A stretch of 64,000 nucleotides of DNA from Crossaster papposus (lineage: Eukaryota; Echinodermata; Asteroidea; Velatida; Solasteridae): NCBI GenBank assembly GCA_037893245.1, contig JBAIAA010000244.1, positions 496,001 through 560,000 of the forward strand. Reading direction: 5' to 3'. Each line of letters begins with the position of its first letter. The first letter of the stretch is position 1. Under the pieces are notes generated by a model that made no database searches, was not told where the DNA came from, and saw nothing but the letters and a program-made list of their open reading frames with translations. The position numbers and the translations under genes are program-made. Below, one piece after another: positions 1 to 64,000 of the stretch.

Positions 1-30
1 AATATGTAAAGGGAAAGAATTGTGCATAAG

Positions 31-61
31 AAATATGTAAAGGGAAAGAAGTGTGCATAAG
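31..61. repeat. Reference 31-mer unit
   Basis: First complete canonical unit. On the plus strand 24 of 31 bases are purines and only one is C. It contains a 13-base purine run, AAAGGGAAAGAAG, whose first nine bases are a perfect mirror repeat. The plus strand has two TAA triplets. The minus strand has no stop in any frame, and because 31 is not a multiple of three the three frames form one 31-residue peptide period. Common variants are CATAAT, CATACG, CATCAG or CATTAG at the 3' end, AAGGAAAAG or AAAGAGAAAG in the purine run, and AATTGTGC. Confidence 0.96.
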
Positions 62-97
62 AAATAAACACCTGATGTCGGAACAAGCCCTCGAGTT
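62..97. repeat. Reference type-A 36-mer
   Basis: First complete type-A element. Starting at the shared AAATA, it carries CACCTGATG at positions 8-16, a CpG at 18-19, CAA at 23-25 and the hexamer CTCGAG (XhoI site, second CpG) at 29-34. It ends in TT. The TT plus the first base of the next 31-mer gives TTA, a TAA stop on the minus strand. CAA is TTG on the minus strand, which works as a formal alternative start. Function unknown; no known protein-binding box such as the CENP-B box is recognisable. Confidence 0.95.
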
Positions 98-665
98 AAA
101 TATGTAAAGGGAAAGAAGTGTGCATAAGAAATATGTAAAGGGAAAGAAGTGTGCATAAGAAATATGTAAAGGGAAAGAAGTGTGCATAAGAAATAAACAC
201 CTGATGTCGGAACAAGCCCTCGAGTTAAATATGTAAAGGGAAAGAAGTGTGCATAAGAAATTTGTAAAGGGAAAGAAGTGTGCATAAGAAATAAACACCT
301 GATGTCGGAACAAGCCCTCGAGTTAAATATGTAAAGGGAAAGAAGTGTGCATAAGAAATATGTAAAGGGAAAGAAGTGTGCATAAGAAATATGTAAAGGG
401 AAAGAAGTGTGCATAAGAAATATGTAAAGGGAAAGAAGTGTGCATAAGAAATATGTAAAGGGAAAGAAGTGTGCATAAGAAATATGTAAAGGGAAAGAAG
501 TGTGCATAAGAAATATGTACAGGGAAAGAAGTGTGCATAAGAAATATGTAAAGGGAAAGAAGTGTGCATAAGAAATATGTAAAGGGAAAGAAGTGTGCAT
601 AAGAAATATGTAAAGGGAAAGAAGTGTGCATAAGAAATATGTAAAGGGAAAGAAGTGTGCATAAG

Positions 666-2549
666 AAATAAACACCTGATGTCGGAACAAGCCCTCGAGT
701 TAAATATGTAAAGGGAAAGAAGTGTGCATAAGAAATATGTAAAGGGAAAAAAGTGTGCATAAGAAATAAACACCTGATGTCGGAACAAGCCCTCGAGTTA
801 AATATGTAAAGGGTAAGAAGTGTGCATAAGAAATATGTAAAGGGAAAGAAGTGTGCATAAGAAATAAACACCTGATGTCGGAACAAGCCCTCGAGTTAAA
901 TATGTAAAGGGAAAGAAGTGTGCATTAGAAATATGTAAAGGGAAAGAAGTGTGCATAAGAAATATGTAAAGGGAAAGAAGTGTGCATAAGAAATATGTAA
1001 AGGGAAAGAAGTGTGCATAAGAAATAAACACCTGATGTCGGAACAAGCCCTCGAGTTAAATATGTAAAGGGAAAGAAGTGTGCATAAGAAATATGTAAAG
1101 GGAAAGAAGTGTGCATAAGAAATAAACACCTGATGTCGGAACAAGCCCTCGAGTTAAATATGTAAAGGGAAAGAAGTGTGCATAAAAAATATGTAAAGGG
1201 AAAGAAGTGTGCATAAGAAATATGTAAAGGGAAAGAAGTGTGCATAAGAAATATGTAAAGGGAAAGAAGTGTGCATAAGAAATATGTAAAGGGAAAGAAG
1301 TGTGCATAAGAAATATGTAAAGGGAAAGAAGTGTGCATAAGAAATATGTAAAGGGAAAGAAGTGTGCATAAGAAATAAACACCTGATGTCGGAACAAGCC
1401 CTCGAGTTAAATATGTAAAGGGAAAGAAGTGTGCATAAGAAATATGTAAAGGGAAAGAAGTGTGCATAAGAAATATGTAAAGGGAAAGAAGTGTGCATAA
1501 GAAATAAACACCTGATGTCGGAACAAGCCCTCGAGTTAAATATGTAAAGGGAAAGAAGTGTGCATAAGAAATATGTAAAGGGAAAGAAGTGTGCATAAGA
1601 AATATGTAAAGGGAAAGAAGTGTGCATAAGAAATATGTAAAGGGAAAGAAGTGTGCATAAGAAATAAACACCTGATGTCGGAACAAGCCCTCGAGTTAAA
1701 TATGTAAAGGGAAAGAAGTGTGCATAAGAAATATATAAAGGGAAAGAAGTGTGCATAAGAAATATGTAAAGGGAAAGAAGTGTGCATAAGAAATAAACAC
1801 CTGATGTCGGAACAAGCCCTCGAGTTAAATATGTAAAGGGAAAGAAGTGTGCATAATAAATATGTAAAGGGAAAGAAGTGTGCATAATAAATATGTAAAG
1901 GGAAAGAAGTGTGCATAAGAAATATGTAAAGGGAAAGAAGTGTGCATAAGAAATATGTAAAGGGAAAGAAGTGTGCATAAGAAATATGTAAAGGGAAAGA
2001 AGTGTGCATAAGAAATATGTAAAGGGAAAGAAGTGTGCATAAGAAATATGTAAAGGGAAAGAAGTGTGCATAAGAAATATGTAAAGGGAAAGAAGTGTGC
2101 ATAAGAAATATGTAAAGGGAAAGAAGTGTGCATAAGAAATATGTAAAGGGAAAGAAGTGTGCATAAGAAATAAACACCTGATGTCGGAACAAGCCCCCGA
2201 GTTAAATATGTAAAGGGAAAGAAGTGTGCATAAGAAATATGTAAAGGGAAAGAAGTGTGCATAAGAAATATGTAAAGGGAAAGAAGTGTGCATAAGAAAT
2301 ATGTAAAGGGAAAGAAGTGTGCATAAGAAATATGTAAAGGGAAAGAAGTGTGCATAAGAAATATGTAAAGGGAAAGAAGTGTGCATAAGAAATAAACACC
2401 TGATGTCGGAACAAGCCCTCGAGTTAAATATGTAAAGGGAAAGAAGTGTGCATAAGAAATATGTAAAGGGAAAGAAGTGTGCATAAGAAATATGTAAAGG
2501 GAAAGAAGTGTGCATAAGAAATATGTAAAGGGAAAGAAGTGTGCATAAG
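666..2549. repeat. Higher-order repeat alpha, copy 1
   Basis: Anchors are 690, 788, 886, 1046, 1144, 1397, 1526, 1686, 1815, 2192 and 2414. The spacing series 98, 98, 160, 98, 253, 129, 160, 129, 377, 222 recurs in copies 2 and 3 with changes of single 31-mers. A private CATAAAAAAT unit lies about 40 bp after anchor 1144 (near 1183). The element at anchor 2192 has T to C at 2197, which destroys its CTCGAG hexamer. Confidence 0.88.
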
Positions 2550-4339
2550 AAATAAACACCTGATGTCGGAACAAGCCCTCGAGTTAAATATGTAAAGAGA
2601 AAGAAGTGTGCATAAGAAATATGTAAAGGGAAAGAAGTGTGCATAAGAAATAAACACCTGATGTCGGAACAAGCCCTCGAGTTAAATATGTAAAGGGAAA
2701 GAAGTGTGCATAAGAAATATGTAAAGGGAAAGAAGTGTGCATAAGAAATAAACACCTGATGTCGGAACAAGCCCTCGAGTTAAATATGTAAAGGGAAAGA
2801 AGTGTGCATAAGAAATATGTAAAGGGAAAGAAGTGTGCATAAGAAATATGTAAAGGGAAAGAAGTGTGCATAAGAAATATGTAAAGGGAAGAAGTGTGCA
2901 TAAGAAATAAACACCTGATGTCGGAACAAGCCCTCGAGTTAAATATGTAAAGGGAAAGAAGTGTGCATAAGAAATATGTAAAGGGAAAGAAGTGTGCATA
3001 AGAAATAAACACCTGATGTCGGAACAAGCCCTCGAGTTACATATGTAAAGGGAAAGAAGTGTGCATAAAAAATATGTAAAGGGAAAGAAGTGTGCATAAG
3101 AAATATGTAAAGGGAAAGAAGTGTGCATAAGAAATATGTAAAGGGAAAGAAGTGTGCATAAGAAATATGTAAAGGGAAAGAAGTGTGCATAAGAAATATG
3201 TAAAGGGAAAGAAGTGTGCATAAGAAATATGTAAAGGGAAAGAAGTGTGCATAAGAAATAAACACCTGATGTCGGAACAAGCCCTCGAGTTAAATATGTA
3301 AAGGGAAAGAAGTGTGCATAAGAAATATGTAAAGGGAAAGAAGTGTGCATAAGAAATATGTAAAGGGAAAGAAGTGTGCATAAGAAATAAACACCTGATG
3401 TCGGAACAAGCCCTCGAGTTAAATATGTAAAGGGAAAGAAGTGTGCATAAGAAATATGTAAAGGGAAAGAAGTGTGCATAAGAAATATGTAAAGGGAAAG
3501 AAGTGTGCATAAGAAATATGTAAAGGGAAAGAAGTGTGCATAAGAAATAAACACCTGATGTCGGAACAAGCCCTCGAGTTAAATATGTAAAGGGAAAGAA
3601 GTGTGCATAAGAAATATGTAAAGGGAAAGAAGTGTGCATAAGAAATATGTAAAGGGAAAGAAGTGTGCATAAGAAATAAACACCTGATGTCGGAACAAGC
3701 CCTCGAGTTAAATATGTAAAGGGAAAGAAGTGTGCATAAGAAATATGTAAAGGGAAAGAAGTGTGCATAAGAAATATGTAAAGGGAAAGAAGTGTGCATA
3801 AGAAATATGTAAAGGGAAAGAAGTGTGCATAAGAAATATGTAAAGGGAAAGAAGTGTGCATAAGAAATATGTAAAGGGAAAGAAGTGTGCATAAGAAATA
3901 TGTAAAGGGAAAGAAGTGTGCATAAGAAATATGTAAAGGGAAAGAAGTGTGCATAAGAAATATGTAAAGGGAAAGAAGTGTGCATAAGAAATATGTAAAG
4001 GGAAAGAAGTGTGCATAAGAAATATGTAAAGGGAAAGAAGTGTGCATACGAAATATGTAAAGGGAAAGAAGTGTGCATAAGAAATAAACACCTGATGTCG
4101 GAACAAGCCCTCGAGTTAAATATGTAAAGGGAAAGAAGTGTGCATAAGAAATATGTAAAGGGAAAGAAGTGTGCATAAGAAATATGTAAAGGGAAAGAAG
4201 TGTGCATAAGAAATATGTAAAGGGAAAGAAGTGTGCATAAGAAATATGTAAAGGGAAAGAAGTGTGCATAAGAAATATGTAAAGGGAAAGAAGTGTGCAT
4301 AAGAAATAAACACCTGATGTCGGAACAAGCCCTCGAGTT
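2550..4339. repeat. Higher-order repeat alpha, copy 2
   Basis: Anchors are 2574, 2672, 2770, 2929, 3027, 3280, 3409, 3569, 3698, 4106 and 4328. They match copy 1 at +1,884, then at +1,883 after a one-base deletion in the purine run near 2889. One extra 31-mer lies between 3698 and 4106. The CATAAAAAAT marker recurs near 3066. Copies 1 and 2 are directly adjacent. Confidence 0.87.
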
Positions 4340-5036
4340 AAATATGTAAAGGGAAAGAAGTGTGCATAAGAAATATGTAAAGGGAAAGAAGTGTGCATAA
4401 GAAATATGTAAAGGGAAAGAAGTGTGCATAAGAAATATGTAAAGGGAAAGAAGTGTGCATAAGAAATATGTAAAGGGAAAGAAGTGTGCATAAGAAATAT
4501 GTAAAGGGAAAGAAGTGTGCATAAGAAATATGTAAAGGAAAAGAAGTGTGCATAAGAAATATGTAAAGGGAAAGAAGTGTGCATAAGAAATAAACACCTG
4601 ATGTCGGAACAAGCCCTCGAGTTAAATATGTAAAGGGAAAGAAGTGTGTATAAGAAATATGTAAAGGGAAAGAAGTGTGCATAAGAAATATGTAAAGGGA
4701 AAGAAGTGTGCATAAGAAATATGTAAAGGGAAAGAAGTGTGCATAAGAAATAAACACCTGATGTCGGAACAAGCCCTCGAGTTAAATATGTAAAGGGAAA
4801 GAAGTGTGCATAAGAAATATGTAAAGGGAAAGAAGTGTGCATAAGAAATATGTAAAGGGAAAGAAGTGTGCATAAGAAATATGTAAAGGGAAAGAAGTGT
4901 GCATAAGAAATAAACACCTGATGTCGGAACAAGCCCTCGAGTTAAATATGTAAAGGGAAAGAAGTGTGCATAAGAAATATGTAAAGGGAAAGAAGTGTGC
5001 ATAAGAAATATGTAAAGGGAAAGAAGTGTGCATAAG
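4340..5036. repeat. Spacer between alpha copy 2 and beta copy 1
   Basis: Type-A anchors are 4612, 4772 and 4932, embedded in ordinary 31-mers. One unit has GTGTGTATAAG near 4647. I recognised no higher-order partner for this stretch. Confidence 0.8.
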
Positions 5037-7586
5037 AAATAAACACCTGATGTCGGAACAAGCCCTCGAGTTAAATATGTAAAGGGAAAGAAGTGTGCAT
5101 AAGAAATAAACACCTGATGTCGGAACAAGCCCTCGAGTTAAATATGTAAAGGGAAAGAAGTGTGCATAAGAAATATGTAAAGGGAAAGAAGTGTGCATAA
5201 GAAATATGTAAAGGGAAAGAAGTGTGCATAAGAAATATGTAAAGGGAAAGAAGTGTGCATAAGAAATAAACACCTGATGTCGGAACAAGCCCTCGAGTTA
5301 AATATGTAAAGGGAAAGAAGTGTGCATAAGAAATATGTAAAGGGAAAGAAGTGTGCATAAGAAATATGTAAAGGGAAAGAAGTGTGCATACGAAATAAAC
5401 ACCTGATGTCGGAACAAGCCCTCGAGTTAAATATGTAAAGGGAAAGAAGTGTGCATAAGAAATATGTAAAGGGAAAGAAGTGTGCATAAGAAATATGTAA
5501 AGGGAAAGAAGTGTGCATAAGAAATATGTAAAGGGAAAGAAGTGTGCATAAGAAATATGTAAAGGGAAAGAAGTGTGCATAAGAAATATGTAAAGAGAAA
5601 GAAGTGTGCATAAGAAATATGTAAAGGGAAAGAAGTGTGCATAAGAAATATGTAAAGGGAAAGAAGTGTGCATAAGAAATATGTAAAGGGAAAGAAGTGT
5701 GCATAAGAAATATGTAAAGGGAAAGAAGTGTGCATAAGAAATAAACACCTGATGTCGGAACAAGCCCTCGAGTTAAATATGTAAAGGGAAAGAAGTGTGC
5801 ATAAGAAATATGTAAAGGGAAAGAAGTGTGCATAAGAAATATGTAAAGGGAAAGAAGTGTGCATAAGAAATATGTAAAGGGAAAGAAGTGTGCATAAGAA
5901 ATATGTAAAGGGAAAGAAGTGTGCATCAGAAATATGTAAAGGGAAAGAAGTGTGCATAAGAAATATGTAAAGGGAAAGAAGTGTGCATAAGAAATATGTA
6001 AAGGGAAAGAAGTGTGCATAAGAAATATGTAAAGGGAAAGAAGTGTGCATAAGAAATATGTAAAGGGAAAGAAGTGTGCATAAGAAATAAACACCTGATG
6101 TCGGAACAAGCCCTCGAGTTAAATATGTAAAGGGAAAGAAGTGTGCATAAGAAATAAACACCTGATGTCGGAACAAGCCCTCGAGTTAAATATGTAAAGG
6201 GAAAGAAGTGTGCATAAGAAATATGTAAAGGGAAAGAAGTGTGCATAAGAAATATGTAAAGGGAAAGAAGTGTGCATAAGAAATATGTAAAGGGAAAGAA
6301 GTGTGCATAAGATATATGTAAAGGGAAAGAAGTGTGCATAAGAAATAAACACCTGATGTCGGAACAAGCCCTCGAGTTAAATATGTAAAGGGAAAGAAGT
6401 GTGCATAAGAAATATGTAAAGGGAAAGAAGTGTGCATAAGAAATATGTAAAGGGAAAGAAGTGTGCATAAGAAATATGTAAAGGGAAAGAAGTGTGCATA
6501 AGAAATATGTGAAGGGAAATAAGTGTGCATAAGAAATATGTAAAGGGAAAGAAGTGTGCATAAGAAATATGTAAAGGGAAAGAAGTGTGCATAAGAAATA
6601 TGTAAAGGGAAAGAAGTGTGCATAAGAAATATGTAAAGGGAAAGAAGTGTGCATAAGAAATATGTAAAGGGAAAGAAGTGTGCATAAGAAATAAAAACCT
6701 GATGTCGGAACAAGCCCTCGAGTTAAATATGTAAAGGGAAAGAAGTGTGCATAAGAAATAAACACCTGATGTCGGAACAAGCCCTCGAGTTAAATATGTA
6801 AAGGGAAAGAAGTGTGCATAAGAAATATGTAAAGGGAAAGAAGTGTGCATAAGAAATATGTAAAGGGAAAGAAGTGTGCATAAGAAATATGTAAAGGGAA
6901 AGAAGTGTGCATAAGATATATGTAAAGGGAAAGAAGTGTGCATAAGAAATAAACACCTGATGTCGGAACAAGCCCTCGAGTTAAATATGTAAAGGGAAAG
7001 AAGTGTGCATAAGAAATATGTAAAGGGAAAGAAGTGTGCATAAGAAATATGTAAAGGGAAAGAAGTGTGCATAAGAAATATGTAAAGGGAAAGAAGTGTG
7101 CATAAGAAATATGTAAAGGGAAAGAAGTGTGCATAAGAAATAAACACCTGATGTCGGAACAAGCCCTCGAGTTAAATATGTAATGGGAAAGAAGTGTGCA
7201 TAAGAAATATGTAAAGGGAAAGAAGTGTGCATAAGAAATATGTAAAGGGAAAGAAGTGTGCATAAGAAATAAACACCTGATGTCGGAACAAGCCCTCGAG
7301 TTAAATATGTAAAGGGAAAGAAGTGTGCATAAGAAATATGTAAAGGGAAAGAAGTGTGCATAAGAAATATGTAAAGGGAAAGAAGTGTGCATAAGAAATA
7401 TGTAAAGGGAAAGAAGTGTGCATAAGAAATAAACACCTGATGTCGGAACAAGCCCTCGAGTTAAATATGTAAAGGGAAAGAAGTGTGCATAAGAAATATG
7501 TAAAGGGAAAGAAGTGTGCATAAGAAATATGTAAAGGGAAAGAAGTGTGCATAAGAAATATGTAAAGGGAAAGAAGTGTGCATAAG
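5037..7586. repeat. Higher-order repeat beta, copy 1 (2,550 bp)
   Basis: Anchors are 5061, 5128, 5288, 5417, 5763, 6109, 6176, 6367, 6713, 6780, 6971, 7162, 7291 and 7451. Seven private variants recur exactly 2,550 bp downstream: CATACG near 5391, AAAGAGAAAG near 5594, CATCAG near 5926, GATATATG near 6313, GTGAAGGGAAATAAG near 6511, AAATAAAAACCTG near 6694 and TAATGGGAAAG near 7183. Confidence 0.93.
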
Positions 7587-10012
7587 AAATAAACACCTGA
7601 TGTCGGAACAAGCCCTCGAGTTAAATATGTAAAGGGAAAGAAGTGTGCATAAGAAATAAACACCTGATGTCGGAACAAGCCCTCGAGTTAAATATGTAAA
7701 GGGAAAGAAGTGTGCATAAGAAATATGTAAAGGGAAAGAAGTGTGCATAAGAAATATGTAAAGGGAAAGAAGTGTGCATAAGAAATATGTAAAGGGAAAG
7801 AAGTGTGCATAAGAAATAAACACCTGATGTCGGAACAAGCCCTCGAGTTAAATATGTAAAGGGAAAGAAGTGTGCATAAGAAATATGTAAAGGGAAAGAA
7901 GTGTGCATAAGAAATATGTAAAGGGAAAGAAGTGTGCATACGAAATAAACACCTGATGTCGGAACAAGCCCTCGAGTTAAATATGTAAAGGGAAAGAAGT
8001 GTGCATAAGAAATATGTAAAGGGAAAGAAGTGTGCATAAGAAATATGTAAAGGGAAAGAAGTGTGCATAAGAAATATGTAAAGGGAAAGAAGTGTGCATA
8101 AGAAATATGTAAAGGGAAAGAAGTGTGCATAAGAAATATGTAAAGAGAAAGAAGTGTGCATAAGAAATATGTAAAGGGAAAGAAGTGTGCATAAGAAATA
8201 TGTAAAGGGAAAGAAGTGTGCATAAGAAATATGTAAAGGGAAAGAAGTGTGCATAAGAAATATGTAAAGGGAAAGAAGTGTGCATAAGAAATAAACACCT
8301 GATGTCGGAACAAGCCCTCGAGTTAAATATGTAAAGGGAAAGAAGTGTGCATAAGAAATATGTAAAGGGAAAGAAGTGTGCATAAGAAATATGTAAAGGG
8401 AAAGAAGTGTGCATAAGAAATATGTAAAGGGAAAGAAGTGTGCATAAGAAATATGTAAAGGGAAAGAAGTGTGCATCAGAAATATGTAAAGGGAAAGAAG
8501 TGTGCATAAGAAATATGTAAAGGGAAAGAAGTGTGCATAAGAAATATGTAAAGGGAAAGAAGTGTGCATAAGAAATATGTAAAGGGAAAGAAGTGTGCAT
8601 AAGAAATATGTAAAGGGAAAGAAGTGTGCATAAGAAATAAACACCTGATGTCGGAACAAGCCCTCGAGTTAAATATGTAAAGGGAAAGAAGTGTGCATAA
8701 GAAATAAACACCTGATGTCGGAACAAGCCCTCGAGTTAAATATGTAAAGGGAAAGAAGTGTGCATAAGAAATATGTAAAGGGAAAGAAGTGTGCATAAGA
8801 AATATGTAAAGGGAAAGAAGTGTGCATAAGAAATATGTAAAGGGAAAGAAGTGTGCATAAGATATATGTAAAGGGAAAGAAGTGTGCATAAGAAATAAAC
8901 ACCTGATGTCGGAACAAGCCCTCGAGTTAAATATGTAAAGGGAAAGAAGTGTGCATAAGAAATATGTAAAGGGAAAGAAGTGTGCATAAGAAATATGTAA
9001 AGGGAAAGAAGTGTGCATAAGAAATATGTAAAGGGAAAGAAGTGTGCATAAGAAATATGTGAAGGGAAATAAGTGTGCATAAGAAATATGTAAAGGGAAA
9101 GAAGTGTGCATAAGAAATATGTAAAGGGAAAGAAGTGTGCATAAGAAATATGTAAAGGGAAAGAAGTGTGCATAAGAAATATGTAAAGGGAAAGAAGTGT
9201 GCATAAGAAATATGTAAAGGGAAAGAAGTGTGCATAAGAAATAAAAACCTGATGTCGGAACAAGCCCTCGAGTTAAATATGTAAAGGGAAAGAAGTGTGC
9301 ATAAGAAATAAACACCTGATGTCGGAACAAGCCCTCGAGTTAAATATGTAAAGGGAAAGAAGTGTGCATAAGAAATATGTAAAGGGAAAGAAGTGTGCAT
9401 AAGAAATATGTAAAGGGAAAGAAGTGTGCATAAGAAATATGTAAAGGGAAAGAAGTGTGCATAAGATATATGTAAAGGGAAAGAAGTGTGCATAAGAAAT
9501 AAACACCTGATGTCGGAACAAGCCCTCGAGTTAAATATGTAAAGGGAAAGAAGTGTGCATAAGAAATATGTAAAGGGAAAGAAGTGTGCATAAGAAATAT
9601 GTAAAGGGAAAGAAGTGTGCATAAGAAATATGTAAAGGGAAAGAAGTGTGCATAAGAAATATGTAAAGGGAAAGAAGTGTGCATAAGAAATAAACACCTG
9701 ATGTCGGAACAAGCCCTCGAGTTAAATATGTAATGGGAAAGAAGTGTGCATAAGAAATATGTAAAGGGAAAGAAGTGTGCATAAGAAATATGTAAAGGGA
9801 AAGAAGTGTGCATAAGAAATAAACACCTGATGTCGGAACAAGCCCTCGAGTTAAATATGTAAAGGGAAAGAAGTGTGCATAAGAAATATGTAAAGGGAAA
9901 GAAGTGTGCATAAGAAATATGTAAAGGGAAAGAAGTGTGCATAAGAAATATGTAAAGGGAAAGAAGTGTGCATAAGAAATAAACACCTGATGTCGGAACA
10001 AGCCCTCGAGTT
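7587..10012. repeat. Higher-order repeat beta, copy 2 (tandem)
   Basis: Anchors are 7611, 7678, 7838, 7967, 8313, 8659, 8726, 8917, 9263, 9330, 9521, 9712, 9841 and 10001, each 2,550 bp after its partner. The seven private variants recur near 7941, 8144, 8476, 8863, 9061, 9244 and 9733. I saw no difference from copy 1 by eye. Correspondence is lost after anchor 10001, where the next spacing is 129 instead of 160. Confidence 0.93.
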
Positions 10013-10833
10013 AAATATGTAAAGGGAAAGAAGTGTGCATAAGAAATATGTAAAGGGAAAGAAGTGTGCATAAGAAATATGTAAAGGGAAAGAAGTGTGC
10101 ATAAGAAATAAACACCTGATGTCCGAACAAGCCCTCGAGTTAAATATGTAAAGGGAAAGAAGTGTGCATAAGAAATATGTAAAGGGAAAGAAGTGTGCAT
10201 AAGAAATATGTAAAGGGAAAGAAGTGTGCATAAGAAATATGTAAAGGGAAAGAAGTGTGCATAAGAAATATGTAAAGGGAAAGAAGTGTGCATAAGAAAT
10301 ATGTAAAGGGAAAGAAGTGTGCATAAGAAATATGTAAAGGGAAAGAAGTGTGCATAAGAAATATGTAAAGGGAAAGAAGTGTGCATAAGAAATATGTAAA
10401 GGGAAAGAAGTGTGCATAAGAAATATGTAAAGGGAAAGAAGTGTGCATAAGAAATATGTAAAGGGAAAGAAGTGTGCATAATAAATAAACACCTGATGTC
10501 GGAACAAGCCCTCGAGTTAAATATGTAAAGGGAAAGAAGTGTGCATAAGAAATATGTAAAGGGAAAGAAGTGTGCATAAGAAATATGTAAAGGGAAAGAA
10601 GTGTGCATAAGAAATATGTAAAGGGAAAGAAGTGTGCATAAGAAATAAACACCTGATGTCGGAACAAGCCCTCGAGTTAAATATGTAAAGGGAAAGAAGT
10701 GTGCATAAGAAATATGTAAAGGGAAAGAAGTGTGCATAAGAAATATGTAAAGGGAAAGAAGTGTGCATAAGAAATATGTAAAGGGAAAGAAGTGTGCATA
10801 AGAAATATGTAAAGGGAAAGAAGTGTGCATAAG
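10013..10833. repeat. Spacer between beta copy 2 and alpha copy 3
   Basis: Type-A anchors are 10130, 10507 and 10667. The element at anchor 10130 reads GATGTCCGAAC instead of GATGTCGGAAC. A CATAAT variant immediately precedes the element at anchor 10507. Confidence 0.8.
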
Positions 10834-12625
10834 AAATAAACACCTGATGTCGGAACAAGCCCTCGAGTTAAATATGTAAAGGGAAAGAAGTGTGCATAAG
10901 AAATATGTAAAGGGAAAGAAGTGTGCATAAGAAATAAACACCTGATGTCGGAACAAGCCCTCGAGTTAAATATGTAAAGGGAAAGAAGTGTGCATAAGAA
11001 ATATGTAAAGGGAAAGAAGTGTGCATAAGAAATAAACACCTGATGTCGGAACAAGCCCTCGAGTTAAATATGTAAAGGGAAAGAAGTGTGCATAAGAAAT
11101 AGGTAAAGGGAAAGAAGTGTACATAAGAAATATGTAAAGGGAAAGAAGTGTGCATAAGAAATATGTAAAGGGAAAGAAGTGTGCATAAGAAATAAACACC
11201 TGATGTCGGAACAAGCCCTCGAGTTAAATATGTAAAGGGAAAGAAGTGTGCATAAGAAATATGTAAAGGGAAAGAAGTGTGCATAAGAAATAAACACCTG
11301 ATGTCGGAACAAGCCCTCGAGTTAAATATGTAAAGGGAAAGAAGTGTGCATAAAAAATATGTAAAGGGAAAGAAGTGTGCATAAGAAATATGTAAAGGGA
11401 AAGAAGTGTGCATAAGAAATATGTAAAGGGAAAGAAGTGTGCATAAGAAATATGTAAAGGGAAAGAAGTGTGCATAAGAAATATGTAAAGGGAAAGAAGT
11501 GTGCATAAGAAATAAACACCTGATGTCGGAACAAGCCCTCGAGTTAAATATGTAAAGGGAAAGAAGTGTGCATAAGAAATATGTAAAGGGAAAGAAGTGT
11601 GCATAAGAAATATGTAAAGGGAAAGAAGTGTGCATAAGAAATAAACACCTGATGTCGGAACAAGCCCTCGAGTTAAATATGTAAAGGGAAAGAAGTGTGC
11701 ATAAGAAATATGTAAAGGGAAAGAAGTGTGCATAAGAAATATGTAAAGGGAAAGAAGTGTGCATAAGAAATATGTAAAGGGAAAGAAGTGTGCATAAGAA
11801 ATAAACACCTGATGTCGGAACAAGCCCTCGAGTTAAATATGTAAAGGGAAAGAAGTGTGCATAAGAAATATGTAAAGGGAAAGAAGTGTGCATAAGAAAT
11901 ATGTAAAGGGAAAGAAGTGTGCATAAGAAATAAACACCTGATGTCGGAACAAGCCCTCGAGTTAAATATGTAAAGGGAAAGAAGTGTGCATAAGAAATAT
12001 GTAAAGGGAAAGAAGTGTGCATAAGAAATATGTAAAGGGAAAGAAGTGTGCATAAGAAATATGTAAAGGGAAAGAAGTGTGCATAAGAAATATGTAAAGG
12101 GAAAGAAGTGTGCATAAGAAATATGTAAAGGGAAAGAAGTGTGCATAAGAAATATGTAAAGGGAAAAGAAGTGTGCATAAGAAATATGTAAAGGGAAAGA
12201 AGTGTGCATAAGAAATATGTAAAGGGAAAGAAGTGTGCATAAGAAATATGTAAAGGGAAAGAAGTGTGCATAAGAAATATGTAAAGGGAAAGAAGTGTGC
12301 ATACGAAATATGTAAAATGAAAGAAGTGTGCATAAGAAATAAACACCTGATGTCGGAACAAGCCCTCGAGTTAAATATGTAAAGGGAAAGAAGTGTGCAT
12401 AAGAAATATGTAAAGGGAAAGAAGTGTGCATAAGAAATATGTAAAGGGAAAGAAGTGTGCATAAGAAATATGTAAAGGGAAAGAAGTGTGCATAAGAAAT
12501 ATGTAAAGGGAAAGAAGTGTGCATAAGAAATATGTAAAGGGAAAGAAGTGTGCATAAGAAATATGTAAAGGGAAAGAAGTGTGCATAAGAAATAAACACC
12601 TGATGTCGGAACAAGCCCTCGAGTT
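10834..12625. repeat. Higher-order repeat alpha, copy 3
   Basis: Anchors are 10858, 10956, 11054, 11214, 11312, 11534, 11663, 11823, 11952, 12361 and 12614. Spacings 98, 98, 160, 98, 222, 129, 160, 129, 409, 253 follow copies 1 and 2 with single-unit differences and one inserted A near 12,167. The CATAAAAAAT marker recurs near 11,352, again about 40 bp after the fifth anchor. The right edge is uncertain. Confidence 0.82.
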
Positions 12626-46219: not shown

Positions 46220-46255
46220 AAATAAACACATGATGTGGGAACAAGCCCTCGAGTT
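46220..46255. repeat. Type-B 36-mer
   Basis: Canonical type B in zeta copy 2. It is followed by the longest 36-mer-free run of the window, 201 31-mers. Confidence 0.93.
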
Positions 46256-52493: not shown

Positions 52494-52529
52494 AAATAAA
52501 CACATGATGTCGGGACAAGCCCTCGAGTT
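52494..52529. repeat. Type-C 36-mer
   Basis: The core reads CACATGATGTCGGGAC. It has the type-B A at position 11, the type-A CpG at 18-19 and a private A to G at position 21. Confidence 0.93.
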
Positions 52530-53116: not shown

Positions 53117-53152
53117 AAATAAACACATGATGTGGGAACAAGCCCTCGAGTT
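53117..53152. repeat. Type-B 36-mer
   Basis: Canonical type B. It follows 19 31-mers, two of which lack one base (AAATAATAAAG near 52,561 and 53,027). Confidence 0.93.
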
Positions 53153-54609
53153 AAATATGTAAAGGGAAAGAAGTGTGCATAAGAAATATGTAAAGGGAAA
53201 GAAGTGTGCATAAGAAATATGTAAAGGGAAAGAAGTGTGCATAAGAAATATGTAAAGGGAAAGAAGTGTGCATAAGAAATATGTAAAGGGAAAGAAGTGT
53301 GCATAAGAAATATGTAAAGGGAAAGAAGTGTGCATAAGAAATATGTAAAGGGAAAGAAGTGTGCATAAGAAATATGTAAAGAGAAAGAAGTGTGCATAAG
53401 AAATATGTAAAGGGAAAGAAGTGTGCATTAGAAATATGTAAAGGGAAAGAAGTGTGCATAAGAAATATGTAAAGGGAAAGAAGTGTGCATAAGAAATATG
53501 TAAAGGGAAAGAAGTGTGCATAAGAAATATGTAAAGGGAAAGAAGTGTGCATAAGAAATATGTAAAGGGAAAGAAGTGTGCATAAGAAATATGTAAAGGG
53601 AAAGAAGTGTGCATAAGAAATATGTAAAGGGAAAGAAGTGTGCATAAGAAATATGTAAAGGGAAAGAAGTGTGCATAAGAAATATGTAAAGGGAAAGAAG
53701 TGTGCATAATAAATATGTAAAGGGAAAGAAGTGTGCATAAGAAATATGTAAAGGGAAAGAAGTGTGCATAAGAAATATGTAAAGGGAAAGAAGTGTGCAT
53801 AATAAATATGTAAAGGGAAAGAAGTGTGCATAAGAAATATGTAAAGGGAAAGAAGTGTGCATAAGAAATATGTAAAGGGAAAGAAGTGTGCATAAGACAT
53901 ATGTAAAGGGAAAGAAGTGTGCATAAGAAATATGTAAAGGGAAAGAAGTGTGCATAAGAAATATGTAAAGGGAAAGAAGTGTGCATAAGAAATATGTAAA
54001 GGGAAAGAAGTGTGCATAAGAAATATGTAAAGGGAAAGAAGTGTGCATAAGAAATATGTAAAGGGAAAGAAGTGTGCATAAGAAATATGTAAAGGGAAAG
54101 AAGTGTGCATAAGACATATGTAAAGGGAAAGAAGTGTGCATAAGAAATATGTAAAGGGAAAGAAGTGTGCATAAGAAATATGTAAAGGGAAAGAAGTGTG
54201 CATAAGAAATATGTAAAGGGAAAGAAGTGTGCATAAGAAATATGTAAAGGGAAAGAAGTGTGCATATGAAATATGTAAAGGGAAAGAAGTGTGCATAAGA
54301 AATATGTAAAGGGAAAGAAGTGTGCATAAGAAATATGTAAAGGGAAAGAAGTGTGCATAAGAAATATGTAAAGGGAAAGAAGTGTGCATAAGAAATATGT
54401 AAAGGGAAAGAAGTGTGCATAAGAAATATGTAAAGGGAAAGAAGTGTGCATAAGAAATATGTAAAGGGAAAGAAGTGTGCATAAGAAATATGTAAAGGAA
54501 AAGAAGTGTGCATAAGAAATATGTAAAGGGAAAGAAGTGTGCATAAGAAATATGTAAAGGGAAAGAAGTGTGCATAAGAAATATGTAAAGGGAAAGAAGT
54601 GTGCATAAG

Positions 54610-54645
54610 AAATAAACACATGATGTCGGGACAAGCCCTCGAGTT
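54610..54645. repeat. Type-C 36-mer
   Basis: Same C-type core as the element 2,116 bp upstream; the two are eta duplicates. Confidence 0.93.
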
Positions 54646-55232
54646 AAATATGTAAAGGGAAAGAAGTGTGCATAAGAAATAATAAAGAGAAAGAAGTGTG
54701 CATAAGAAATATGTAAAGGGAAAGAAGTGTGCATAAGAAATATGTAAAAGGAAAGAAGTGTGCATAAGAAATATGTAAAAGGAAAGAAGTGTGCATAGGA
54801 AATATGTAAAGGGAAAGAAGTGTGCATAAGAAATATGTAAAGGGAAAGAAGTGTGCATAAGAAATATGTAAAGAGAAAGAAGTGTGCATAAGAAATATGT
54901 AAAGGGAAAGAAGTGTGCATAAGAAATATGTAAAGGGAAAGAAGTGTGCATAAGAAATATGTAAAGGGAAAGAAGTGTGCATAAGAAATATGTAAAGGGA
55001 AAGAAGTGTGCATAAGAAATATGTAAAGGGAAAGAAGTGTGCATAAGAAATATGTAAAGGGAAAGAAGTGTGCATAAGAAATATGTAAAGGGAAAGAAGT
55101 GTGCATAAGAAATATGTAAAGGGAAAGAAGTGTGCATAAGAAATAATAAAGGAAAAGAAGTGTGCATAAGAAATATGTAAAGGGAAAGAAGTGTGCATAA
55201 GAAATATGTAAAGGGAAAGAAGTGTGCATAAG

Positions 55233-55268
55233 AAATAAACACATGATGTGGGAACAAGCCCTCGAGTT
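55233..55268. repeat. Type-B 36-mer
   Basis: Canonical type B, 2,116 bp after the element at 53,117. The 587-bp run before it contains the same two one-base deletions. Confidence 0.93.
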
Positions 55269-56198
55269 AAATATGTAAAGGGAAAGAAGTGTGCATAAGA
55301 AATATGTAAAGGGAAAGAAGTGTGCATAAGAAATATGTAAAGGGAAAGAAGTGTGCATAAGAAATATGTAAAGGGAAAGAAGTGTGCATAAGAAATATGT
55401 AAAGGGAAAGAAGTGTGCATAAGAAATATGTAAAGGGAAAGAAGTGTGCATAAGAAATATGTAAAGGGAAAGAAGTGTGCATAAGAAATATGTAAAGGGA
55501 AAGAAGTGTGCATAAGAAATATGTAAAGGGAAAGAAGTGTGCATAAGAAATATGTAAAGGGAAAGAAGTGTGCATAAGAAATATGTAAAGGGAAAGAAGT
55601 GTGCATAAGAAATATGTAAAGGGAAAGAAGTGTGCATAAGAAATATGTAAAGGGAAAGAAGTGTGCATAAGAAATATGTAAAGGGAAAGAAGTGTGCATA
55701 AGAAATATGTAAAGGGAAAGAAGTGTGCATAAGAAATATGTAAAGGGAAAGAAGTGTGCATAAGAAATATGTAAAGGGAAAGAAGTGTGCATAAGACATA
55801 TGTAAAGGGAAAGAAGTGTGCATAAGAAATATGTAAAGGGAAAGAAGTGTGCATAAGAAATATGTAAAGGGAAAGAAGTGTGCATAAGAAATATGTAAAG
55901 GGAAAGAAGTGTGCATAAGAAATATGTAAAGGGAAAGAAGTGTGCATATGAAATATGTAAAGGGAAAGAAGTGTGCATAAGAAATATGTAAAGGGAAAGA
56001 AGTGTGCATAAGAAATATGTAAAGGGAAAGAAGTGTGCATAAGAAATATGTAAAGGGAAAGAAGTGTGCATAAGAAATATGTAAAAGGAAAGAAGTGTGC
56101 ATAAGAAATATGTAAAGGGAAAGAAGTGTGCATAAGAAATATGTAAAGGGAAAGAAGTGTGCATAAGAAATATGTAAAGGGAAAGAAGTGTGCATAAG

Positions 56199-56234
56199 AA
56201 ATAAACACATGATGTGGGAACAAGCCCTCGAGTT
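56199..56234. repeat. Type-B 36-mer
   Basis: Canonical type B after 30 31-mers, downstream of an AAGACA/CATATG marker pair. Confidence 0.93.
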
Positions 56235-57319
56235 AAATATGTAAAGGGAAAGAAGTGTGCATAAGAAATATGTAAAGGGAAAGAAGTGTGCATAAGAAAT
56301 ATGTAAAGGGAAAGAAGTGTGCATAAGAAATATGTAAAGGGAAAGAAGTGTGCATAAGAAATATGTAAAGGGAAAGAAGTGTGCATAAGAAATATGTAAA
56401 GGGAAAGAAGTGTGCATAAGAAATATGTAAAGGGAAAGAAGTGTGCATAAGAAATATGTAAAGGGAAAGAAGTGTGCATAAGAAATATGTAAAGGGAAAG
56501 AAGTGTGCATAAGAAATATGTAAAGGGAAAGAAGTGTGCATAAGAAATATGTAAAGGGAAATAAGTGTGCATAAGAAATATGTAAAGGGAAAGAAGTGTG
56601 CATAAGAAATATGTAAAGGGAAAGAAGTGTGCATAAGAAATATGTAAAGGGAAAGAAGTGTGCATAAGAAATATGTAAAGGGAAAGAAGTGTGCATAAGA
56701 AATATGTAAAGGGAAAGAAGTGTGCATAAGAAATATGTAAAGGGAAAGAAGTGTGCATAAGAAATATGTAAAGGGAAAGAAGTGTGCATAAGAAATATGT
56801 AAAGGGAAAGAAGTGTGCATAAGAAATATGTAAAGGGAAAGAAGTGTGCATAAGAAATATGTAAAGGGAAAGAAGTGTGCATAAGAAATATGTAAAGGGA
56901 AAGAAGTGTGCATAAGAAATATGTAAAGGGAAAGAAGTGTGCATAAGACATATGTAAAGGGAAAGAAGTGTGCATAAGAAATATGTAAAGGGAAAGAAGT
57001 GTGCATAAGAAATATGTAAAGGGAAAGAAGTGTGCATAAGAAATATGTAAAGGGAAAGAAGTGTGCATAAGAAATATGTAAAGGGAAAGAAGTGTGCATA
57101 TGAAATATGTAAAGGGAAAGAAGTGTGCATAAGAAATATGTAAAGGGAAAGAAGTGTGCATAAGAAATATGTAAAGGGAAAGAAGTGTGCATAAGAAATA
57201 TGTAAAGGGAAAGAAGTGTGCATAAGAAATATGTAAAGGGAAAGAAGTGTGCATAAGAAATATGTAAAGGGAAAGAAGTGTGCATAAGAAATATGTAAAG
57301 GGAAAGAAGTGTGCATAAG

Positions 57320-57355
57320 AAATAAACACATGATGTGGGAACAAGCCCTCGAGTT
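57320..57355. repeat. Type-B 36-mer
   Basis: Canonical type B after 35 31-mers, downstream of an AAGACA/CATATG marker pair. Confidence 0.93.
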
Positions 57356-58502
57356 AAATATGTAAAGGGAAAGAAGTGTGCATAAGAAATATGTAAAGGG
57401 AAAGAAGTGTGCATAAGAAATATGTAAAGGGAAAGAAGTGTGCATAAGAAATATGTAAAGGGAAAGAAGTGTGCATAAGAAATATGTAAAGGGAAAGAAG
57501 TGTGCATAAGAAATATGTAAAGGGAAAGAAGTGTGCATAAGAAATATGTAAAGGGAAAGAAGTGTGCATAAGAAATATGTAAAGAGAAAGAAGTGTGCAT
57601 AAGAAATATGTAAAGGGAAAGAAGTGTGCATTAGAAATATGTAAAGGGAAAGAAGTGTGCATAAGAAATATGTAAAGGGAAAGAAGTGTGCATAAGAAAT
57701 ATGTAAAGGGAAAGAAGTGTGCATAATAAATATGTAAAGGGAAAGAAGTGTGCATAAGAAATATGTAAAGGGAAAGAAGTGTGCATAAGAAATATGTAAA
57801 GGGAAAGAAGTGTGCATAAGAAATATGTAAAGGGAAAGAAGTGTGCATAAGAAATATGTAAATGGAAAGAAGTGTGCATAAGAAATATGTAAAGGGAAAG
57901 AAGTGTGCATAAGAAATATGTAAAGGGAAAGAAGTGTGCATAAGAAATATGTAAAGGGAAAGGAGTGTGCATAAGAAATATGTAAAGGGAAAGAAGTGTG
58001 CATAAGAAATATGTAAAGGAAAAGAAGTGTGCATAAGAAATATGTAAAGGGAAAGAAGTGTGCATAAGAAATATGTAAAGGGAAAGAAGTGTGCATAAGA
58101 AATATGTAAAGGGAAAGAAGTGTGCATAAGAAATATGTAAAGGGAAAGAAGTGTGCATAAGAAATATGTAAATGGAAAGAAGTGTGCATAAGAAATATGT
58201 AAAGGGAAAGAAGTGTGCATAAGAAATATGTAAAGGGAAAGAAGTGTGCATAAGAAATATGTAAAGGGAAAGAAGTGTGCATAAGAAATATGTAAAGGGA
58301 AAGAAGTGTGCATAAGAAATATGTAAAGGGAAAGAAGTGTGCATAAGAAATATGTAAAGGGAAAGAAGTGTGCATAAGAAATATGTAAAGGGAAAGAAGT
58401 GTGCATAAGAAATATGTAAAGGGAAAGAAGTGTGCATAAGAAATATGTAAAGGGAAAGAAGTGTGCATAAGAAATATGTAAAGGGAAAGAAGTGTGCATA
58501 AG

Positions 58503-58536
58503 AAATAACACATGATGTGGGAACAAGCCTCGAGTT
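58503..58536. repeat. Shortened type-B 36-mer (34 bp)
   Basis: Two one-base losses are visible: AAATAACACATG lacks one A, and CAAGCCTCGAG lacks one C. CTCGAG itself is kept. Confidence 0.9.
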
Positions 58537-58688
58537 AAATATGTAAAGGGAAAGAAGTGTGCATAAGAAATATGTAAAGGGAAAGAAGTGTGCATAAGAA
58601 ATATGTAAAGGGAAAGAAGTGTGCATAAGAAATATGTAAAGGGAAAGAAGTGTGCATAAATATGTAAAGGGAAAGAAGTGTGCATAAG

Positions 58689-58723
58689 AAATAAACACAT
58701 GATGTGGGAACAAGCCTCGAGAT
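58689..58723. repeat. Shortened type-B 36-mer (35 bp)
   Basis: Lacks one C (CAAGCCTCGAG), as in the neighbour at 58,503, and ends GAT instead of GTT, which removes the minus-strand TAA at its junction. It directly precedes the 111-unit homogeneous run. A 3-base deletion (CATAAATATG) lies near 58,658. Confidence 0.9.
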
Positions 58724-61700
58724 AAATATGTAAAGGGAAAGAAGTGTGCATAAGAAATATGTAAAGGGAAAGAAGTGTGCATAAGAAATATGTAAAGGGA
58801 AAGAAGTGTGCATAAGAAATATGTAAAGGGAAAGAAGTGTGCATAAGAAATATGTAAAGGGAAAGAAGTGTGCATAAGAAATATGTAAAGGGAAAGAAGT
58901 GTGCATAAGAAATATGTAAAGGGAAAGAAGTGTGCATAAGAAATATGTAAAGGGAAAGAAGTGTGCATAAGAAATATGTAAAGGGAAAGAAGTGTGCATA
59001 AGAAATATGTAAAGGGAAAGAAGTGTGCATAAGAAATATGTAAAGGGAAAGAAGTGTGCATAAGAAATATGTAAAGGGAAAGAAGTGTGCATAAGAAATA
59101 TGTAAAGGGAAAGAAGTGTGCATAAGAAATATGTAAAGGGAAAGAAGTGTGCATAAGAAATATGTAAAGGGAAAGAAGTGTGCATAAGAAATATGTAAAG
59201 GGAAAGAAGTGTGCATAAGAAATATGTAAAGGGAAAGAAGTGTGCATAAGAAATATGTAAAGGGAAAGAAGTGTGCATAAGAAATATGTAAAGGGAAAGA
59301 AGTGTGCATAAGAAATATGTAAAGGGAAAGAAGTGTGCATAAGAAATATGTAAAGGGAAAGAAGTGTGCATAAGAAATATGTAAAGGGAAAGAAGTGTGC
59401 ATAAGAAATATGTAAAGGGAAAGAAGTGTGCATAAGAAATATGTAAAGGGAAAGAAGTGTGCATAAGAAATATGTAAAGGGAAAGAAGTGTGCATAAGAA
59501 ATATGTAAAGGGAAAGAAGTGTGCATAAGAAATATGTAAAGGGAAAGAAGTGTGCATAAGAAATATGTAAAGGGAAAGAAGTGTGCATAAGAAATATGTA
59601 AAGGGAAAGAAGTGTGCATAAGAAATATGTAAAGGGAAAGAAGTGTGCATAAGAAATATGTAAAGGGAAAGAAGTGTGCATAAGAAATATGTAAAGGGAA
59701 AGAAGTGTGCATAAGAAATATGTAAAGGGAAAGAAGTGTGCATAAGAAATATGTAAAGGGAAAGAAGTGTGCATAAGAAATATGTAAAGGGAAAGAAGTG
59801 TGCATAAGAAATATGTAAAGGGAAAGAAGTGTGCATAAGAAATATGTAAAGGGAAAGAAGTGTGCATAAGAAATATGTAAAGGGAAAGAAGTGTGCATAA
59901 GAAATATGTAAAGGGAAAGAAGTGTGCATAAGAAATATGTAAAGGGAAAGAAGTGTGCATAAGAAATATGTAAAGGGAAAGAAGTGTGCATAAGAAATAT
60001 GTAAAGGGAAAGAAGTGTGCATAAGAAATATGTAAAGGGAAAGAAGTGTGCATAAGAAATATGTAAAGGGAAAGAAGTGTGCATAAGAAATATGTAAAGG
60101 GAAAGAAGTGTGCATAAGAAATATGTAAAGGGAAAGAAGTGTGCATAAGAAATATGTAAAGGGAAAGAAGTGTGCATAAGAAATATGTAAAGGGAAAGAA
60201 GTGTGCATAAGAAATATGTAAAGGGAAAGAAGTGTGCATAAGAAATATGTAAAGGGAAAGAAGTGTGCATAAGAAATATGTAAAGGGAAAGAAGTGTGCA
60301 TAAGAAATATGTAAAGGGAAAGAAGTGTGCATAAGAAATATGTAAAGGGAAAGAAGTGTGCATAAGAAATATGTAAAGGGAAAGAAGTGTGCATAAGAAA
60401 TATGTAAAGGGAAAGAAGTGTGCATAAGAAATATGTAAAGGGAAAGAAGTGTGCATAAGAAATATGTAAAGGGAAAGAAGTGTGCATAAGAAATATGTAA
60501 AGGGAAAGAAGTGTGCATAAGAAATATGTAAAGGGAAAGAAGTGTGCATAAGAAATATGTAAAGGGAAAGAAGTGTGCATAAGAAATATGTAAAGGGAAA
60601 GAAGTGTGCATAAGAAATATGTAAAGGGAAAGAAGTGTGCATAAGAAATATGTAAAGGGAAAGAAGTGTGCATAAGAAATATGTAAAGGGAAAGAAGTGT
60701 GCATAAGAAATATGTAAAGGGAAAGAAGTGTGCATAAGAAATATGTAAAGGGAAAGAAGTGTGCATAAGAAATATGTAAAGGGAAAGAAGTGTGCATAAG
60801 AAATATGTAAAGGGAAAGAAGTGTGCATAAGAAATATGTAAAGGGAAAGAAGTGTGCATAAGAAATATGTAAAGGGAAAGAAGTGTGCATAAGAAATATG
60901 TAAAGGGAAAGAAGTGTGCATAAGAAATATGTAAAGGGAAAGAAGTGTGCATAAGAAATATGTAAAGGGAAAGAAGTGTGCATAAGAAATATGTAAAGGG
61001 AAAGAAGTGTGCATAAGAAATATGTAAAGGGAAAGAAGTGTGCATAAGAAATATGTAAAGGGAAAGAAGTGTGCATAAGAAATATGTAAAGGGAAAGAAG
61101 TGTGCATAAGAAATATGTAAAGGGAAAGAAGTGTGCATAAGAAATATGTAAAGGGAAAGAAGTGTGCATAAGAAATATGTAAAGGGAAAGAAGTGTGCAT
61201 AAGAAATATGTAAAGGGAAAGAAGTGTGCATAAGAAATATGTAAAGGGAAAGAAGTGTGCATAAGAAATATGTAAAGGGAAAGAAGTGTGCATAAGAAAT
61301 ATGTAAAGGGAAAGAAGTGTGCATAAGAAATATGTAAAGGGAAAGAAGTGTGCATAAGAAATATGTAAAGGGAAAGAAGTGTGCATAAGAAATATGTAAA
61401 GGGAAAGAAGTGTGCATAAGAAATATGTAAAGGGAAAGAAGTGTGCATAAGAAATATGTAAAGGGAAAGAAGTGTGCATAAGAAATATGTAAAGGGAAAG
61501 AAGTGTGCATAAGAAATATGTAAAGGGAAAGAAGTGTGCATAAGAAATATGTAAAGGGAAAGAAGTGTGCATAAGAAATATGTAAAGGGAAAGAAGTGTG
61601 CATAAGAAATATGTAAAGGGAAAGAAGTGTGCATAAGAAATATGTAAAGGGAAAGAAGTGTGCATAAGAAATATGTAAAGGGAAAGAAGTGTGCATAAGA

Positions 61701-62164
61701 AATATGTAAAGGGAAAGAAGTGTGCATAAGAAATATGTAAAGGGAAAGAAGTGTGCATAAGAAATATGTAAAGGGAAAGAAGTGTGCATAAGAAATATGT
61801 AAAGGGAAAGAAGTGTGCATAAGAAATATGTAAAGGGAAAGAAGTGTGCATAAGAAATATGTAAAGGGAAAGAAGTGTGCATAAGAAATATGTAAAGGGA
61901 AAGAAGTGTGCATAAGAAATATGTAAAGGGAAAGAAGTGTGCATAAGAAATATGTAAAGGGAAAGAAGTGTGCATAAGAAATATGTAAAGGGAAAGAAGT
62001 GTGCATAAGAAATATGTAAAGGGAAAGAAGTGTGCATAAGAAATATGTAAAGGGAAAGAAGTGTGCATAAGAAATATGTAAAGGGAAAGAAGTGTGCATA
62101 AGAAATATGTAAAGGGAAAGAAGTGTGCATAAGAAATATGTAAAGGGAAAGAAGTGTGCATAAG
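58724..62164. repeat. Homogeneous 31-mer run (111 apparently identical units)
   Basis: 3,441 bp, exactly 111 x 31, in which I see no substitution or indel. It is bounded on the left by a degenerate type-B element and on the right by a unit missing a base in the purine run (GGGAAAAAGTG near 62,176). Confidence 0.88.
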
Positions 62165-62381
62165 AAATATGTAAAGGGAAAAAGTGTGCATAAGAAATAT
62201 GTAAAGGGAAAGAAGTGTGCATAATAAATATGTAAAGGGAAAGAAGTGTGCATAAGAAATATGTAAAGGGAAAGAAGTGTGCATAAGAAATATGTAAAGA
62301 GAAAGAAGTGTGCATAAGAAATATGTAAAGGGAAAGAAGTGTGCATAAGAAATATGTAAAGGGGAAAGAAGTGTGCATAAG

Positions 62382-62417
62382 AAATAAACACATGATGTGG
62401 GAACAAGCCCTCGAGTT
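62382..62417. repeat. Type-B 36-mer
   Basis: Canonical type B after a 118-unit run. The flanking units carry indels. Confidence 0.93.
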
Positions 62418-62541
62418 AAATATGTAAAGGGAAAGAAGTGTGCATAAGAAATATGTAAAGGGAAAGAAGTGTGCATAAGAAATATGTAAAGGGAAAGAAG
62501 TGTGCATAAGAAATATGTAAAGGGAAAGAAGTGTGCATAAG

Positions 62542-62577
62542 AAATAAACACATGATGTGGGAACAAGCCCTCGAGTT
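62542..62577. repeat. Type-B 36-mer
   Basis: Canonical type B, four 31-mers after the preceding element. Confidence 0.93.
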
Positions 62578-62824
62578 AAATATGTAAAGGGAAAGAAGTG
62601 TGCATAAGAAATATGTAAAGGGAAAGAAGTGTGCATAAGAAATATGTAAAGGGAAAAAAGTGTGCATAAGAAATATTTAAAGGAAAGAAGTGTGCATACG
62701 AAATATGTAAAGGGAAAGAAGTGTGCATAAGAAATATGTAAAGGGAAAGAAGTGTGCATAAGAAATATGTAAAGGGAAAGAAGTGTGCATAAGAAATATG
62801 TAAAGGGAAAGAAGTGTGCATAAG

Positions 62825-62860
62825 AAATAAACACATGATGTGGGAACAAGCCCTCGAGTT
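62825..62860. repeat. Type-B 36-mer (last 36-mer in the window)
   Basis: Canonical type B, eight units after the preceding element. Only 31-mers follow to 64,000. Confidence 0.93.
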
Positions 62861-63400
62861 AAATATGTAAAGGGAAAGAAGTGTGCATAAGAAATATGTA
62901 AAGGGAAAGAAGTATGCATAAGAAATATGTAAAGGGAAAGAAGTGTGCATAAGAAATATGTAAAGGGAAAGAAGTGTGCATAAGAAATATGTAAAGGGAA
63001 AGAAGTGTGCATAAGAAATATGTGTAAAGGGAAAGAAGTGTGCATAAGAAATATGTAAGGGAAAGAAGTGTGCATAAGAAATATGTAAAGGGAAAGAAGT
63101 GTGCATAAGAAATATGTAAAGGGAAAGAAGTGTGCATAAGAAATATGTAAAGGGAAAGAAGTGTGCATAAGAAATATGTAAAGGGAAAGAAGTGTGCATA
63201 AGAAATATGTAAAGGGAAAGAAGTGTGCATAAGAAATATGTAAAGGGAAAGAAGTGTGCATAAGAAATATGTAAAGGGAAATAAGTGTGCATAAGAAATA
63301 TGTAAAGGGAAAGAAGTGTGCATAAGAAATATGTAAAGGGAAAGAAGTGTGCATAAGAAATATGTAAAGGGAAGAAGAAGTGTGCATAAGAAATATGTAA

Positions 63401-64000
63401 AGGGAAAGAAGTGTGCATGAGAAATATGTAAAGGGAAAGAAGTGTGCATAAGAAATATGTAAAGGGAAAGAAGTGTGCATAAGAAATATGTAAAGGGAAA
63501 GAAGTGTGCATAAGAAATATGTAAAGGGAAAGAAGTGTGCATAAGAAATATGTAAAGGGAAAGAAGTGTGCATAAGAAATATGTAAAGGGAAAGAAGTGT
63601 GCATAAGAAATATGTAAAGGGAAAGAAGTGTGCATAAGAAATATGAAAAGGGAAAGAAGTGTGCATAAGAAATATGTAAAGGGAAAGAAGTGTGCATAAG
63701 AAATATGTAAAGGGAAAGAAGTGTGCATAAGAAATATGTAAAGGGAAAGAAGTGTGCATAAGAAATATGTAAAGGGAAAGAAGTGTGCATAAGAAATATG
63801 TAAAGGGAAAGAAGTGTGCATAAGAAATATGTAAAGGGAAAGAAGTGTGCATAAGAAATATGTAAAGGGAAAGAAGTGTGCATAAGAAATATGTAAAGGG
63901 AAAGAAGTGTGCATAAGAAATATGTAAAGGGAAAGAAGTGTGCATAAGAAATATGTAAAGGGAAAGAAGTGTGCATAAGAAATATGTAAAGGAAAAGAAG
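63401..64000. repeat. Terminal 31-mers
   Basis: Regular 31-mers with a few substitutions, such as CATGAG near 63,418, ATGAAAAGG near 63,644 and AAGGAAAAG in the last unit, which the window cuts off. No 36-mer, gene or array edge is visible. Confidence 0.9.

Follow-up and report, generated by a model that had tools for sequence, protein, structure and literature searches.

Two unrelated units in strict register within a 64-kb satellite array: a probable single origin and spread by in-register unequal exchange

The window—that is, the whole stretch of 64,000 bases analysed here—is occupied by a tandem array of a 31-base unit, referred to as A, in which a 36-base unit, referred to as B, is interspersed. 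A single period-31 array of 2,027.6 copies, spanning positions 1–64000, was returned by Tandem Repeats Finder (TRF), and a dynamic-programming parse (costs: mismatch, 1; indel base, 2; jump, 7) covered the entire window with these two units, namely 1,801 A segments and 228 B units, at a total cost of 419. The number of A segments includes one 37-base A entered as two pieces and a last A cut by the window end. Neither a third unit nor an inverted stretch was required by the parse, with the units running head-to-tail in one orientation throughout; 25 of the 2,029 segments were of non-standard length, and one jump was used. The array and its subdivisions are listed below.

1..64000, plus strand: array of the 31-mer A (AATATGTAAAGGGAAAGAAGTGTGCATAAGA) and scattered copies of the 36-mer B, extending beyond the window at both ends
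63..98, plus strand: first B unit (AATAAACACCTGATGTCGGAACAAGCCCTCGAGTTA); with its flank, it reads AAATA, 31 bases, AAATA
1..36638, plus strand: region I, B-dense; 209 B, separated by A runs of 1–21 units
36639..37816, plus strand: boundary A run of 38 units; last ACACCTGATG at 36608, first ACACATGATG at 37822
37817..64000, plus strand: region II, B-sparse; 19 B, with gaps of 2 to 201 A units

Both the long same-strand tandem array and the homogenization that characterize satellite DNA were found, the former over 64 kb. In the parse, 1,528 A segments are exact, and the fraction of full-length A units matching the consensus exactly is 0.855 in region I (944 units) and 0.865 in region II (834 units), with an identical A consensus in the two regions. 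Comparison of A with B revealed no similarity above that of shuffled sequences on either strand.

Frames of up to 3,282 codons are open on the minus strand, as a by-product of the stop-free 31-mer. Because 31 is not a multiple of 3, every frame through an A run gives the same 31-residue repeat, and such frames are therefore no evidence of a gene; shuffled versions of A are stop-free on the minus strand in 40% of cases. Gene finders may call false giant proteins from these frames across positions 1–64000.

Over the whole window, successive B units are separated by 1 to 201 A units, and 214 of the 227 B-to-B gaps measure exactly 31n bases. The 13 deviating gaps differ by +1 (six gaps), −1 (three), −2 (two), −3 (one), and +7 (one), the last being the 201-unit run, in which one A contains a 6-base TGTGCA duplication and another A has one extra base. 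This tandem duplication within one A, at 49719–49730, is the largest register slip in the window. The A units flanking B run to their unit ends for all 228 B in the parse. Furthermore, an ungapped scan independent of the parse recovered 228 B cores and found the A motif at the expected distance on the left of 221 and on the right of 226, the exceptions being one base off, with two of them also skipping one indel-bearing A. Apart from one-base slips, one phase of the 31-mer is used by every one of the 228 B units.

The parse, the register scan, and the lack of A/B similarity thus agree with the sequence-only reading, which had described two unrelated modules in strict register, and the gaps bear out its claim of 31n bases save for small indels, all 13 exceptions being off by 1–3 or 7 bases. 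The run of TRF that it had proposed likewise gave a 31-bp periodicity over 1–64000, and the parse and the scan place the 36-mers at one phase and not at many. Its range of 4 to 201 units for region II is correct at the upper end, but the lower end is 2 (the gap at 37853–37914). It had also held that a 36-mer never interrupts a 31-mer; the single phase among the 31 is real, but the wording is partly convention because the start of A is arbitrary, so that the statement restates the use of one phase.

Regions I and II differ in the subtype as well as the density of B. Position 10 of B is C in 208 and G in 1 of the 209 region I units, with A in none, and is A in all 19 region II units; in addition, C17 is replaced by G in 17 of these 19. 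The subtype switch falls between 36.6 and 37.8 kb, and B units of the same domain are nearly identical in sequence. In the B units at 52495 and 54611, which lie 2,116 bases apart within one block pair, the changes are C10A and A20G with C17 kept, making them a possible intermediate between the two subtypes. Since a rarer unit drifts to fixation faster, the scarcity of B may account for B differing between the domains while A does not. The 37 full-length A units adjoining B in region II (18 before and 19 after) contain 0 substitutions, with about 6 expected from the rate of 0.162 per unit in 796 inner units, which may be due to chance, block duplication making those A units non-independent.

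Ten ungapped block matches, with identities of 99.52–100%, exceeded the score cut-off in a search that compared whole units and is therefore blind to out-of-register copies. The shifts between the paired blocks are 15,157, 15,101, and 15,034 bases; 2,550, 2,582, and 2,525 bases; 17,683 bases; and 12,576 bases, with the last two corresponding to a sum and a difference of the ~15.1-kb and ~2.5-kb shifts. The shifts in region II are 3,575 and 2,116 bases. Five of the pairs are as follows.

14052..17684 and 29209–32842, plus strand: block pair, 99.75% identity, shift 15,157
19054–21692 and 34155–36793, plus strand: block pair, 99.89% identity, shift 15,101
4945..7556 and 7495–10106, plus strand: block pair, no difference, shift 2,550
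40750..44696 and 44325–48271, plus strand: block pair, 99.90% identity, shift 3,575
51813..53370 and 53929–55486, plus strand: block pair, no difference, shift 2,116

The pairs at shifts of 15,157 and 15,101 reflect a ~15.1-kb duplication. This duplication also appears as the most frequent B-to-B lag in region I, 475 units (51 observed versus 22.2 expected), followed by a lag of 473 units (40 versus 22.3). No single dominant multi-unit period, as in a regular higher-order repeat, was observed, the block copies occurring at several shifts. In the 15.1-kb duplication, the copy on the right runs to 36,793, just past the last region I B (36,638), so that the boundary between the domains resembles a breakpoint of exchange. 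Given that 25 of the 2,029 segments depart from the standard length and that the parse contains one jump, any copying that gave rise to the window stayed in register to within a few bases and out-of-register copies are absent; the near-identical block copies fit in-register unequal exchange.

Homogeneous arrays of such length are hard to assemble, and misjoined or collapsed reads could in principle have altered the number of units or the boundary between the domains, as the two block copies lacking any difference over 2,612 and 1,558 bases would suggest. However, other block pairs show 2 to 9 base differences, and the register and the absence of adjacent B units described below are both seen over distances far below long-read length. 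An assembly artefact is accordingly considered unlikely.

The edges of B are common to A, with AATA matching the A start and a final A matching the A end, giving a 5-base repeat on the two sides of a 31-base insert; the position of B is consequently ambiguous over 5 bases, with six equivalent placements. An edge overlap of at least 5 bases arose in 0.65% of shuffles (P = 0.0065; shuffled B, random rotation), and could be due to chance given the A-rich context. The insert and A are without similarity, and their equal length of 31 bases is taken as a coincidence. Such a junction is what would be left by one insertion that duplicated a 5-base target, by a microhomology-mediated join, or by the reverse event, a deletion between two AAATA copies.

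Two B units are never adjacent. In region I, the number of BB pairs is 0, whereas 5,000 unit shuffles gave 37.4 on average and at least 20 in every case; in region II, it is also 0, which is uninformative because only 0.39 is expected. Because block duplication makes B units non-independent, distinct contexts (left run, right run) were counted as well, and the 63 contexts found in region I gave P ~4e-6 for the lack of BB under independent placement. B units separated by a single A are common (51 of the 227 gaps), indicating that crowding as such is tolerated. Neither the absence of BB nor the existence of two B subtypes had figured in the sequence-only reading.

The same observations bear on the proposal that the B units are copies of a short sequence, mobile or targeted, that were inserted independently many times at AAATA with 5-base target duplications. 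AAATA is present on both sides of B, as a target duplication would leave it, and the 31-base insert has the edges AAC...GTT, a 3-base inverted repeat. Under this proposal, BB should be produced since the sites beside each B carry AAATA too; in 2,000 simulations of independent insertion, BB pairs indeed averaged 37.4, with a minimum of 20, against the observed 0. The near identity of the copies inside each domain also argues against independent mobile insertions, and 31 bases are too short for an intact mobile element, although B may be the remnant of one. Repeated insertion is therefore highly improbable.

The one-phase B array is instead best explained, with good confidence, by a single founding junction that was spread by in-register unequal exchange. 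A foreign 31-base sequence, flanked by the 5 bases AAATA, would have entered a 31-mer array at one phase in one junction event. Blocks ranging from a few units to ~15 kb would then have been duplicated and deleted by unequal exchange in register, or by an equivalent copying process guided by homology, and exchange at matching positions would have reused the junctions A-A, A-B, and B-A alone. Because homologous exchange joins equal positions, no further cause is needed for B being held to one phase and for BB never arising. Separate homogenization would have produced two domains that differ in B subtype and density.

For the first of these steps, an alternative is equally compatible with the junction: a 67-base AB unit may have lost B once, by deletion between two AAATA copies, which yields the same junction as an insertion. 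In the fuller form of this alternative, a regular 67-base AB repeat came first and the A-only units spread afterwards, and six local 67-base AB arrays detected by TRF (e.g., 12718–12888) are consistent with it. On the other hand, A far outnumbers B, and nothing in the window polarizes gain versus loss of B. An AB repeat as the ancestral state is considered less likely than not, but a serious possibility.

Spread from a single founding B was simulated in arrays with one B among 1,200 A, with mean exchange sizes of 10, 30, and 80 units, 6,000 attempts for each size, and up to 8,000 events. The B density of region I was reached in 43 of the 18,000 simulated arrays (4, 18, and 21 for mean exchanges of 10, 30, and 80 units, respectively), and BB was 0 in all 43, which is true by construction. 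The lumpiness of the run lengths, measured as the departure from a geometric law, is 4.47 in region I, with simulated medians of 2.8, 4.6, and 8.3 for the three exchange sizes; arrays at least as lumpy as that observed numbered 1 of 4, 10 of 18, and 19 of 21, respectively. The sequence-only reading had called the array an uncommon design, a view that these results do not sustain: one splice followed by homologous exchange must yield one phase without BB, and the simulations, conditioned on density, reproduce the lumpy spacing. Strict register thus requires no special design.

With 43 successes in 18,000 attempts, a single B seldom becomes common under pure drift unless this outcome is conditioned on. 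The low rate either argues against a fully neutral account or is simply the cost of starting from a single copy; a bias favouring B, or a starting array of smaller size, may lie behind the rise of B.

Selection that keeps B at a set spacing, as a protein-binding, methylation, or nucleosome-phasing element, has also to be weighed. The rarity of a neutral rise in the simulations would favour it, as would the lack of any gap longer than 21 units inside region I and the distribution of CpG: the A consensus contains 0 CpG, and of the window's 461 CpG, 432 start within B units (region I, 411; region II, 21) and the other 29 in A variants. However, a B-to-B spacing of 1 to 201 units and a region II with merely 19 B in 26,990 bases are at odds with a set spacing, and the lumpiness of the spacing in region I is matched by the neutral simulations. 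The CENP-B box (NTTCGNNNNANNCGGGN) was not found either, the best match lacking 4 of the 9 fixed bases when both strands of an A-A-B-A consensus string were searched. Selected spacing is accordingly regarded as improbable, and B is presumed to be without function. In a related and similarly improbable proposal, B is the main CpG-bearing module, kept as a putative sparse methylation or protein-binding element. Two CpG per B are present in 198 of the 209 units of region I, and one CpG, as a result of C17G, in 17 of the 19 units of region II. If the proposal were true, the dense domain (mostly two CpG per B) and the sparse domain (mostly one) would represent distinct chromatin states within the same array.

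Sequence collections were searched with parts of the array. No Rfam RNA family was detected in bases 1–6000, no match to bases 1–1500 was found in phage and plasmid collections, and a 25-mer of A and a 23-mer of B, used as exact queries, were both absent from viral contigs. In prokaryote genome contigs, 34 stretches contained a 17-mer of B, compared with ~30 expected by chance according to our own arithmetic, and none extended beyond 20 bases; 12 of the 34 came from related filamentous cyanobacteria and shared their flanks. Given the chance-level number, the short length, and the kinship of these cyanobacteria, the stretches were taken as unrelated. Together with the type of array, the negative results for viral, plasmid, phage, and RNA sequences suggest that the array is probably eukaryotic. 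Strings of 17–23 bases from the satellite had no match in open-access full texts, which says little since most satellite sequences are deposited in databases or supplements, and 14-base strings matched there solely on unrelated biomedical topics, probably as primers. The satellite family may be unnamed.

The kind of satellite, with unrelated units mixed in one array, and the process are already known. The bovine 1.711a and 1.711b satellites contain a foreign insertion within a 1.715-type repeat (~1.4 kb) that was co-amplified, and resemble the present array in having an insertion that is carried along. The insertion of elements into satellite arrays is treated in a review, as are composite satellites (PMC12628747). 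In human HSat1A (SAR), as described, one tandem array is made of short units of two kinds, A (17 bp) and B (25 bp), but they alternate as a 42-bp unit, in contrast to the occasional and irregular B found here, with 1 to 201 A between successive B (PMC9909926). The higher-order repeats of Meloidogyne chitwoodi and M. fallax likewise join dissimilar monomers, whose identity falls as low as 32%, within one array, with the junctions always in conserved short motifs; those monomers are ~170 bp long and form higher-order units with ~20-bp junction boxes, unlike the 31- and 36-bp units, 5-base edge, and irregular spacing in this window (PMC3694981). Cervid satellite I, set beside the array by description, has 31-bp subrepeats, but these are variable and lie within ~0.9-kb monomers with 46–53% GC in the table rows consulted, whereas the 31-mers here are nearly identical, have 32–35% GC, and are accompanied by an unrelated 36-mer (PMC7835801). 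The array is therefore akin to the mixed satellites of HSat1A and Meloidogyne but irregularly spaced, and is not of the regular alternating or higher-order type.

As a marker of the founding junction, B would make the array a clean natural record of satellite evolution, showing which exchanges took place, on what scale (up to ~15 kb), and with what strictness of register, and such a marker module could serve for estimating the size and rate of exchange in the array. XhoI sites (CTCGAG) number 226, versus 228 B units, and XhoI should therefore cut region I into a 31n+36 ladder and region II into long fragments.
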